Positions 4,399 to 6,560 of a stretch of DNA of 6,560 nucleotides are shown here, one piece after another (position 1 is the first letter of the stretch; each line of letters opens with the position of its first letter). The notes beneath the pieces were generated by a model that saw only the letters and a program-made list of their open reading frames with translations, was not told the DNA's origin and searched no databases. The translations under genes were made by a program, and so were the position numbers. Source of the stretch: Rhodobacter sp. (GTDB taxonomy: Bacteria; Pseudomonadota; Alphaproteobacteria; Rhodobacterales; Rhodobacteraceae); the NCBI GenBank assembly GCA_013824045.1, contig PNND01000343.1, positions 1-6,560 on the forward strand. The letters run 5' to 3'.

Positions 4399-5805
4399 TT
4401 AGTCCGCGATGTCGTAGGGGAGGAGACCCCGCTTGTCGGGGTCTACCTTCAGCCTGCGTTCGAGGGGCGGGACGGAGCGTTGGTGGCAATCGCGCCGTTC
4501 GCAGATGCGGCAGGAGATGCCGATAGGCTCAAACCGGCCCTTCAGATCCAGCCCGTCGGAATAGACGAGGCTGGCGGCGTGGGTGATTTCGCAGCCCAGA
4601 CCGATGGCATAGCGGCGGACCGGGGCGAGGAAGGCCCCGCCGGGTTTTGACACATCACGCGCGAGGCACAGGTAGCGCACGCCATCGGGCGTTTCGGCCA
4701 GTTGGCGCAGGAAATGGCCCGGTGTTTCAAAGGCGCGGTGGACGTTCCAGAGCGGGCAGGCCCCGCCGAAGCGGGCGAATTGCAGGCGCGTGGCAGAGTG
4801 GCGTTTGGTGATGGTGCCGGCCTGATCGACGCGGACGAAGAAGAAGGGGATGCCTTTGGCGCCGGGGCGTTGCAGCGTGGCAAGGCGATGGGCGACCTGT
4901 TCGATGGAGGCACCGAACAGATCGGCCAAACGTTCCAGATCATGCCGGGTTTCCAGCGCGGCGGCCTGAAAGGCGCGGTAGGGCAAGAGCGCCGCCCCTG
5001 CGAAGTAATTGGCGAGGCCGATCTTGGCGATGTCGCGCGCTTCGGGCGTGGCGAAGCGGGCGAGGTCAAGCGTCGCCTCGATCAGTTCGTTTTGCGTGAG
5101 CAGGGCCACTTGCAGCAGAAGCTGGAAGCGCTGGGTCGGCACGGCGGTGCGGTTTGACAGGGCGAGCCGTTTGGTCGCCGCGTCATAACGGCGGGTTTCC
5201 GGCTGATCGGTGAAGACGGTGGTGATGCCGCGCCGTTCCAGCGCGGCGATGGCGATGCGGGTGATGTCGGTCGCGGGGCCGGTTGGGGTGGCGGGGGCGG
5301 CGAAGTTTTCGGCCGCGCGGTCGACGGCATCGATGTAGTTGTCGCAATAGTGGAAGAAATCGCGGACCTCCTCCCACGGTGAGGGGCGGAGGGAGGCGTC
5401 TTCGCGACCAAGGGCCTCGTCCAGTGAGGCGAGGCGTTCATGGGTCTGGCGATAGGCGCGGTGCAGATCGAGAAAGGCGCGAGCAAGGGCCGGGGCGTTG
5501 GAGGCGGCAAGGCGCAGATCGGCCAAGGGGGGCGTGGTCTGGGCGAAGACGGGGTCGGCGAGGGCTTCGCGCATGTCCGACACCAGACGTTCGGATTCGC
5601 CCACGGTCAGTTCGGTGACATCGAGACCGAATTCCTGTGCCAACGCCAGCACCACCGAGGCCGAGACGGGGCGGTGGTTGTTTTCCATCTGATTGAGATA
5701 GGGCAGCGAGACACCGAGCTTGTCGGCGAAGGTCTTTTGCGTCAGCGACAGGCGGCCGCGAATTTCGCGCAGCTTGGCCCCGGCATAGAGTTTCTGAGTG
5801 GCCAT
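4399..5805 (-). CDS. XRE-family short-chain fatty acyl-CoA regulator (ScfR; PccR/RamB-like)
   Basis: A 468-aa transcription factor of the ScfR family, whose characterised member PccR of Rhodobacter sphaeroides controls propionyl-CoA carboxylase. An N-terminal XRE helix-turn-helix spans about 10-66 (LSLTQKTFADKLGVSLPYLN, 19-38). A middle region follows, at about 215-320 related to the ImmA/IrrE peptidase fold, but the expected HExxH is absent (RFQLLLQVALLTQ, 226-238), so it is a sensor and not a protease. Family blocks are GLANYFAGAALLPY (263-276), RLATLQRPGAKGIPFFFVRVD (307-327), FARFGGACPLWNVHRAFE (343-360) and a C-terminal cysteine motif SCRICERRDCHQR (C432, C435, C440) that could bind metal. 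The start is favoured by a G-run ribosome site 6 nt upstream. Two TTTGCAAA boxes directly before the gene imply autoregulation. Unlike many relatives it has no acyl-CoA metabolism gene beside it here, so the ligand (propionyl-CoA or another short acyl-CoA) is not settled. Confidence 0.92.
   Translation of the reverse strand: MATQKLYAGAKLREIRGRLSLTQKTFADKLGVSLPYLNQMENNHRPVSASVVLALAQEFGLDVTELTVGESERLVSDMREALADPVFAQTTPPLADLRLAASNAPALARAFLDLHRAYRQTHERLASLDEALGREDASLRPSPWEEVRDFFHYCDNYIDAVDRAAENFAAPATPTGPATDITRIAIAALERRGITTVFTDQPETRRYDAATKRLALSNRTAVPTQRFQLLLQVALLTQNELIEATLDLARFATPEARDIAKIGLANYFAGAALLPYRAFQAAALETRHDLERLADLFGASIEQVAHRLATLQRPGAKGIPFFFVRVDQAGTITKRHSATRLQFARFGGACPLWNVHRAFETPGHFLRQLAETPDGVRYLCLARDVSKPGGAFLAPVRRYAIGLGCEITHAASLVYSDGLDLKGRFEPIGISCRICERRDCHQRSVPPLERRLKVDPDKRGLLPYDIAD
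4424..4444. terminator. Strong GC-rich hairpin in the convergent 3' region, possible transcript end
   Basis: Arms AGACCCCG (4424-4431) and CGGGGTCT (4437-4444) form a perfect 8-bp stem with a 5-nt loop. It lies 34 nt beyond the DUF465 stop and inside the last codons of the ScfR gene. No T run follows on either strand, so it is not a classical intrinsic terminator. It could still stop or protect the DUF465 mRNA, or may be only a coding coincidence. Confidence 0.3.
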
Positions 5806-5810
5806 GGCGC

Positions 5811-5817
5811 GCCCCCT
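5811..5817 (-). promoter_or_regulatory. Ribosome-binding site for the ScfR gene
   Basis: On the minus strand AGGGGG ends 6 nt before the ATG at 5805. It lies directly next to the TTTGCAAA palindrome, so a regulator bound there would also sit against the translation start region. Confidence 0.5.
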
Positions 5818-5845
5818 TTTGCAAAGCCGTTATCGGCTTTGCAAA
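5818..5845. promoter_or_regulatory. Candidate ScfR/PccR operator: TTTGCAAA-N12-TTTGCAAA palindrome
   Basis: Two exact TTTGCAAA boxes (5818-5825 and 5838-5845) are separated by 12 nt. The whole element is a perfect inverted repeat with 12-bp arms around TTAT (5830-5833). PccR of R. sphaeroides is known to act through TTTGCAAA-X4-TTTGCAAA upstream of pccB. The box matches exactly here, but the spacing is 12 instead of 4, making 20 bp centre to centre, about two helix turns. It starts 13 bp before the ScfR start codon, and no other TTTGCAAA was found in the window. The inference is an autoregulatory operator. A terminator for the upstream MFS gene is less likely, because no T run follows. Confidence 0.75.
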
Positions 5846-5858
5846 GCGTGCCCGTCAA
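5829..5858 (-). promoter_or_regulatory. Candidate sigma-70-type promoter for the ScfR gene
   Basis: On the minus strand TTGACG (5858-5853) is followed after 18 nt by GATAAC (5834-5829): 5 of 6 matches to the -35 consensus and 4 of 6 to the -10. The -10 sits in the centre of the TTTGCAAA palindrome, with one box in the spacer and the other over the expected start of transcription near 5822. This geometry suits repression by steric block. Predicted from consensus only. Confidence 0.45.
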
Positions 5859-5871
5859 GCATGCCCGTCAA
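5849..5871. repeat. Direct repeat of TGCCCGTCAA
   Basis: Two identical 10-mers (5849-5858 and 5862-5871) are 13 nt apart. The second covers the MFS stop codon. On the minus strand each reads TTGACGGGCA, so the repeat duplicates the putative -35 hexamer of the ScfR promoter. Confidence 0.5.
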
Positions 5872-6560
5872 TCGGAGAGGCCGAGGGTGCGGGCGCGGCG
5901 GATGACGGCGAGGATTGAAAAGAGCGCGAGGATGGCGGAGGCCAGCATGAGGAGGACCAGCGGCATCTCTGTTGCGCCTTCGGTGAGCAATGCGCCGGCC
6001 AAGGCGGCCAGCGCCGCGCCGCCGCCGATCTGGATCGCGCCGCCAAGGCCCGAGGCGGTGCCGGCGAGTTCGGGCTTGATCGACAGCATCCCGGCATTGG
6101 CATTGGGCAGGGTCATGCCGTTGCCGAGGCCAAGGGCGAGGGTGAAGCCGAAAAAGACATAGGGCGAATGCACGCCCGCCAGTGTGACGAGGGTCAGCAT
6201 CGCGAGCCCCGAGATGGAGGCGAGGGTGCCCCACAGGATCATCCGGTTCATGCCGAGGCGCACGGAAAAGCGCCCGGCGATGAAATTGCCGACCAGATAG
6301 CCCACGGCGGTGATGGCGAAGAGCAGGCCCACTTCTGAGGAGGACAGGCCAAAGACCACGTTGCCGACATAGGGCGCGCCACCGAGATAGGCGAAGAAGG
6401 AGCCGGAGGTGAAGGAGGCGCAGCCGACATAGCCCCAGAAGCGACGGGATTTTAGCAGACCGGGATAGGTGCGGACCTGATCCATCAGGGAGACCTTGCG
6501 GAGGGTGGCAGTCTCGCCCAGATCGGCCCAGACGAGGGCCAGCGTGGCAAGCCCGAGGAT
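5868..6560 (-). CDS. MFS multidrug efflux transporter, Bcr/CflA-like, C-terminal half (5' end outside window)
   Basis: Inner-membrane proton-driven exporter of the major facilitator superfamily, probably of the drug-resistance Bcr/CflA type. The reading frame is open to the window edge. The first in-frame ATG (6485) is internal, since 25 further codons upstream (ILGLATLALVW...) continue the protein, so 230 residues are visible of an expected 390-410. They cover the end of TM6 and TM7-TM12. TM7 contains GSFFAYLGGAPYVGN, the TM8-TM9 loop has a motif-A-like GRFSVRLGMNRM, and TM10 ends in GNGMTLPNANAGMLS, very like the LPNANA signature of Bcr/CflA proteins. TM11 is glycine/alanine rich (GLGGAIQIGGGAALAALAGALL). 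It ends 62 nt before the ScfR gene on the same strand and may be partly co-transcribed with it. The substrate is unknown. Confidence 0.85.
   Translation of the reverse strand: MLGLATLALVWADLGETATLRKVSLMDQVRTYPGLLKSRRFWGYVGCASFTSGSFFAYLGGAPYVGNVVFGLSSSEVGLLFAITAVGYLVGNFIAGRFSVRLGMNRMILWGTLASISGLAMLTLVTLAGVHSPYVFFGFTLALGLGNGMTLPNANAGMLSIKPELAGTASGLGGAIQIGGGAALAALAGALLTEGATEMPLVLLMLASAILALFSILAVIRRARTLGLSD

Follow-up and report, generated by a model that had tools for sequence, protein, structure and literature searches.

The subject of this analysis is a long palindrome placed directly in front of a regulator gene. The DNA is a contig of Rhodobacter sp., and the window, i.e., the whole stretch that was analyzed, is 6,560 nt long. 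Positions 5818-5845 read TTTGCAAAGCCG-TTAT-CGGCTTTGCAAA, a 28-base palindrome with perfect 12-base arms and a 4-base centre. After a gap of 12 bases comes a 468-aa gene on the minus strand, with an ATG whose first base is 5805. The sequence TTTGCAAA occurred exactly twice in the window, at 5838-5845 (box 1, farther from the gene) and at 5818-5825 (box 2, nearer the gene), and none of 200 dinucleotide shuffles of the window contained two copies. The preliminary description of this DNA was thus accurate in reporting two exact boxes within a perfect palindrome. The single 8-mer is not rare, with 40 copies in the genome compared to 8 for a reversed control; when pairs with 0-30 bases between them were considered, the pair in the window was the sole one in the genome assembly, which is 83% complete. 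The 12-base spacer (5826-5837, minus strand) holds a predicted -10 element, as judged from its sequence and from dyad and promoter comparisons of orthologous leaders. Directly after box 2 lies AGGGGG (5812-5817, minus strand), which by its sequence and the G-rich character of orthologous leaders is a likely ribosome-binding site.

The 468-aa gene (4399-5805, minus strand) encodes a protein in which HTH_3 (PF01381), IrrE-like (PF06114) and ScfRs (PF09856) domains all scored over cut-off, giving it the HTH, IrrE-like and C-terminal ScfRs domains of a ScfR regulator. Its best NCBIfam model was RamB (NF038139), at 415 bits compared to a curated cut-off of 700, and the closest solved structures were those of PrpR. 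A [4Fe4S] cluster has been found in MtPrpR, and cysteines of the C-terminal region of the protein aligned with PrpR. In published accounts, Phe155 of MtPrpR is tied to ligand choice and the equivalent residue of PccR is Trp. This column, counted by hand on the alignment, is occupied by Trp144 in the protein studied here, and a motif match found Trp in 97 of 98 orthologues.

Gene order pointed in the same direction. In Cereibacter johrii, a carboxyltransferase gene (pccB) is followed by a divergent DUF486 gene, an MFS gene, the regulator, a nuclease and a GMC oxidoreductase, and the window matched the stretch between MFS and GMC oxidoreductase, both included, apart from a small interposed DUF465 gene. 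The MFS transporter gene, assigned by open reading frame, domain and its place between pccR and pccB, occupies 5868-6560 (minus strand) and is cut by the contig end. The pccB gene of this genome starts at base 1157 of another contig (C13). Since the last base of the window and the first base of C13 aligned to neighbouring positions of a relative (G006), the assembly break falls inside the MFS gene, and pccB lies about 1.2 kb past the window end by the same relative. The gene order with pccB that marks PccR was therefore found in C. johrii and, through this contig join, in the genome under study. The name pccB itself rests on a Pfam carboxyl transferase domain and gene order, and the nearest NCBIfam model scored under cut-off. 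Because of this gene order and the Trp in the ligand column, together with the domains, we take the 468-aa gene to be an orthologue of pccR, in agreement with its earlier assignment to the ScfR family. Its product is probably a propionyl-CoA-responsive ScfR regulator.

Conservation of the boxes was assessed in two sets of orthologous leaders. The first comprised 98 distinct leaders from two sources, i.e., the best 30 loci of 61 relative genomes (41 of them with a match) and the best 80 of 565 named genome records. The later set was drawn from 80 further leaders, the first new ones in a similarity ranking of 215 matching genomes, which is a non-random choice, and provided 71 new and usable leaders. 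Two loci whose start codon was not located (L048 and L049) and leaders with identical last 90 bases were left out, as were, in the later set, 8 leaders already present in the first and one locus with no upstream sequence (L179). In the 90 bases next to the start, 96 of 98 leaders of the first set and 67 of 71 of the later one contained at least one exact box, compared to a letter-shuffling expectation of 0.045 leaders in each. The preliminary description had named absence of the boxes upstream of orthologues as evidence against an operator; instead, they were kept. Both boxes occurred before orthologues at a constrained distance, yet 45 of the 98 leaders had fewer than two exact boxes, mostly outside the group to which the window belongs. 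Judged from these sequences, the palindrome is a real and conserved operator-like element.

The distance between boxes followed the helical repeat. Exact pairs of the first set formed a cluster at 20-22 bp and another at 30-32 bp. Two windows, 19-23 and 29-33 bp, represent 10 of 42 possible distances. After removal of a 41-42 bp class that is discussed below, they contained 48 of the 50 exact pairs of the first set, and for the later set the count was 20 of 21. These phase windows had been predicted in writing before the later set was fetched; the prediction also included a 40-44 window, in which no pair of the later set fell. When one mismatch was allowed, 67 of 69 pairs in the first set and 55 of 60 in the later set were in phase. 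The exceptions were at 13, 25 and 36 bp for exact pairs and at 14, 14, 16 and 26 bp for pairs with one mismatch. One pccR leader (L104) has exact boxes at -40 and -27, just 13 bp apart, which is near the X4 spacing of pccB. The leaders share descent, a tree of 69 requiring at least 8 changes of spacing class, so the support for phase is real but smaller than binomial values imply. A distance of 20 bp, corresponding to a 12-base spacer, accounted for 42 of 74 exact pairs over all 169 leaders. It is therefore the commonest arrangement at pccR, not an unusual one as had been proposed; elsewhere the spacer is 13-14 bases, or about one helix turn longer (22-24).

Promoter-like elements recurred around the boxes. 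A predicted -35 element, TTGACG (5853-5858, minus strand), is followed after 18 bases by a predicted -10, GATAAC (5829-5834, minus strand), placing box 1 between the two elements and box 2 over the predicted transcription start. A generic promoter scan found nothing, so the pccR promoter is predicted from recurrence in orthologues. TTG[AC] stood 13 bp before box 1 in 24 of 45 leaders of the 20-bp class, 12 of 18 (21 bp), 5 of 16 (22 bp) and 18 of 28 (30 bp), and a -10-like hexamer followed 16-18 bases after TTG in 35 of 45, 16 of 18, 9 of 16 and 21 of 28, respectively; the signal was weak in the 22-bp class. In the 30-bp class, the position of box 1 relative to TTG[AC] was unchanged and box 2 was shifted downstream by ten bases. 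Of the 28 leaders of this class, 10 also had a third, weaker box at +22, with 5 or more of 8 letters matching. In addition, a second TTGACG in the window (5866-5871, minus strand) overlaps the stop region of the MFS gene, 13 bases upstream of the predicted -35.

At pccR, then, conserved boxes lie about two helical turns apart, or about three in other lineages, among recurring promoter-like elements. We consider it likely that the palindrome is an operator through which PccR represses its own gene, with the two boxes straddling the predicted -10. We infer that PccR itself is the protein that binds them. With both boxes occupied by PccR, the -10 and the start site would be covered, and because boxes 20 bp apart straddle the predicted -10, the bound protein would block RNA polymerase. 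Two dimers or one tetramer may grip both boxes from one helix face, and contact from one face would account for changes in distance of about one full turn. An acyl-CoA may alter the outcome of PccR binding.

Related regulators provide parallels for parts of this arrangement. Two-box sites are common for ScfR regulators, and RamB of Paracoccus denitrificans, also a ScfR regulator, has two nearly identical boxes, changes from tetramer to dimer with CoA esters and is proposed to have repressor and activator states (PMC10370305). A spacing of whole turns suits a protein, for example such a tetramer, that contacts the two boxes from the same side. Unlike the protein studied here, it is a class 2 RamB, and its boxes have an 18-bp spacer before a glyoxylate-cycle operon (PMC10370305). 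Negative autoregulation has been reported for RamB of Corynebacterium glutamicum (PMC4448153) and of M. tuberculosis (PMC3420887, PMC6765138); the former is a ScfR-family protein of class 1 with other targets. In M. tuberculosis, TTTGCAAA and TTTGCgAA boxes were footprinted between prpR and prpD, and there they are one base apart in a shared divergent promoter (PMC3420887, PMC6765138). Control of pccR by its own product was not mentioned in the titles and abstract openings of the literature surveyed; the original PccR paper may report it.

The PccR operator of pccB in Rhodobacter (Cereibacter) sphaeroides was reportedly described by Carter and Alber in 2015, and we take TTTGCAAA-X4-TTTGCAAA before pccB, as given in the preliminary description, to be the PccR motif. 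The window has the same TTTGCAAA box; its boxes differ from that operator in that they precede the gene of the regulator itself, are separated by 20 bp rather than 12, and lie inside the predicted promoter core. The pccB leader of C. johrii reads exactly TTTGCAAA-X4-TTTGCAAA, with boxes at 2265 and 2277. The two genes were compared in 61 loci in which both leaders were readable, allowing at most one mismatch per box. Pairs 20-22 bp apart occurred in 35 of 61 pccR leaders versus none of 61 pccB leaders. At pccB, pairs were found at 32 bp (21 loci), 40 bp (17), 8-10 bp (8) and 11-12 bp (4), and no 8-12 bp pairs were detected at pccR in these loci. At least one exact box was present in 47 of 61 pccB leaders, and two in that of C. 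johrii alone, so that the X4 arrangement suggested for pccB was exact in this species and in no other of the 61 leaders; the pccB leader of our own genome had inexact boxes only.

The main box of pccB, present in 60 of 61 leaders, lies 22-23 bp before a conserved CTTT and in 52 of 60 starts 46 bp before TAnnnT. This position, upstream of the predicted -35 and of the core as a whole, is where an activator would sit, and the boxes in pccB leaders are consistent with control of pccB by PccR. A conserved composite block, TTnGCAAnTTTGCAATTTGC, made of two boxes 8 bp apart, was also observed at -40 to -21 from the main box; of 60 pccB leaders, 52 had its box at -40 and 44 that at -32, with at most two mismatches.

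Box layout at prpE likewise differed from that at pccR. For candidate prpE, the best NCBIfam model was propionate-CoA ligase, under cut-off when a 457-residue piece was searched. Boxes 48 bp apart were present in all 17 same-genus loci (one box in one locus being mismatched) and in 18 of the 21 loci examined, out of 26 prpE loci; additional boxes followed at 10 bp in 9 loci and at 32-33 bp in 17. The helix does not complete a whole number of turns over 48 bp. No box was found in 2 of 4 prpE loci from other genera, where start codons may be misread. In the genome under study, the leader of the candidate prpE (contig C2) contains several boxes, among them those at 5601 and 5649.

The proposal that spacing separates self-control from target control held in so far as pccR and pccB spacings differ across the 61 loci; self and target are separated at least as clearly by where the boxes lie with respect to the promoter core. 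On the reading that we favour, PccR would repress at pccR and activate at pccB, self and target being told apart by geometry. We tentatively extend this to a general scheme, which we regard as possible, though short of probable: a single PccR tetramer would act as self-repressor on boxes two or three whole turns apart in the promoter core and as activator of pccB and prpE where tandem boxes, with distances of 8-12, 32 and 40 bp, lie upstream of the -35, and the self-operator would evolve only by whole turns. Three genes, pccR, pccB and prpE, share one box and presumably one protein, and between lineages the spacing moves by about a helix turn. This amounts to a natural experiment, in which the idea that spacing and position set the sign of control becomes testable with a few reporter constructs. 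In addition, box layout could serve as a rule for annotating propionate regulons in relatives of Rhodobacter.

Among other explanations, the one that survives best, though we consider it unlikely, is that PccR binds the boxes and activates pccR in a positive feedback. PccR is reported as a ScfR activator controlling pccB, and MtPrpR is likewise reported to raise prpR expression on propionate, so positive self-control exists in the family. Against this stands the position of the boxes: a protein bound between -35 and -10 and over the predicted start usually blocks polymerase, whereas the main box of pccB is upstream of the predicted -35. It is less probable still that the boxes are bound, with or without PccR, by a different ScfR protein (the L002 paralogue, RamB- or MccR-like). 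Four PF09856 matches occur in the genome, and MtPrpR and MtRamB are reported to share sites, with MtPrpR repressing ramB; however, the boxes accompany pccR, pccB and prpE, and no TTTGCAAA was found within 300 bases upstream of the start of the L002 paralogue. This paralogue (contig C318) is divergent from a gene resembling an aminotransferase.

Very improbable, in our assessment, is that the palindrome acts as an RNA hairpin, for example as terminator of the MFS gene or in translation control in the pccR leader. The minus strand folds at -30.6 kcal/mol (z -3.35), with 2 of 200 shuffles equally good, and a one-sided 8-bp stem is kept in five loci (L021-L023, L027 and L031). However, no terminator-like sites were found, the conserved stem with T-run of an intrinsic terminator being absent. 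In the 42 leaders with a 12-base spacer, dyad symmetry inside the spacer was close to shuffled expectation: matches were observed in 35, 30, 18, 14, 5 and 16 leaders, compared to 33.5, 26.6, 15.3, 16.5, 10.1 and 12.9 with shuffled partners, and the boxes persist as the inner stem changes. The hairpin was set aside because of the missing T-run and the unconserved dyad. The 12-bp arms noted previously are thus perfect in the window, but their inner part is a trait of this sub-clade. Self-repression by PccR, acting through the boxes, is the reading that we retain.

The chance that the boxes belong to a dispersed double-hairpin repeat whose junction also reads TTTGCAAA is negligible: although 16 of the 38 copies outside the window are by eye such junctions and box 1 of the 41-42 bp class resembles one, each window box is flanked by a stem on just one side, the side that both share, and orthologous leaders keep box and promoter, not repeat arms. 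This four-turn class (L026, L029 and L035) was dropped from the spacing analysis, its box 1 appearing to lie inside the repeat by a stem rule for L029 and L035 and by eye for L026. In our genome, the repeat consists of two back-to-back CAAA-stem-TTTG hairpins with a terminator-like look, joined at TTTGCAAA. When up to 3 mismatches were allowed, a 44-base consensus of the repeat had no matches, so copies vary by more than this. Single boxes were rejected as a regulon predictor, 16 of 38 being repeat and most others overlapping open frames. A strict two-stem rule was passed by 13 of the 38 copies outside the window, and the repeat loci are L009, L011, L012, L015, L019, L020, L212, L214, L215, L217-L219, L230-L232 and L234.
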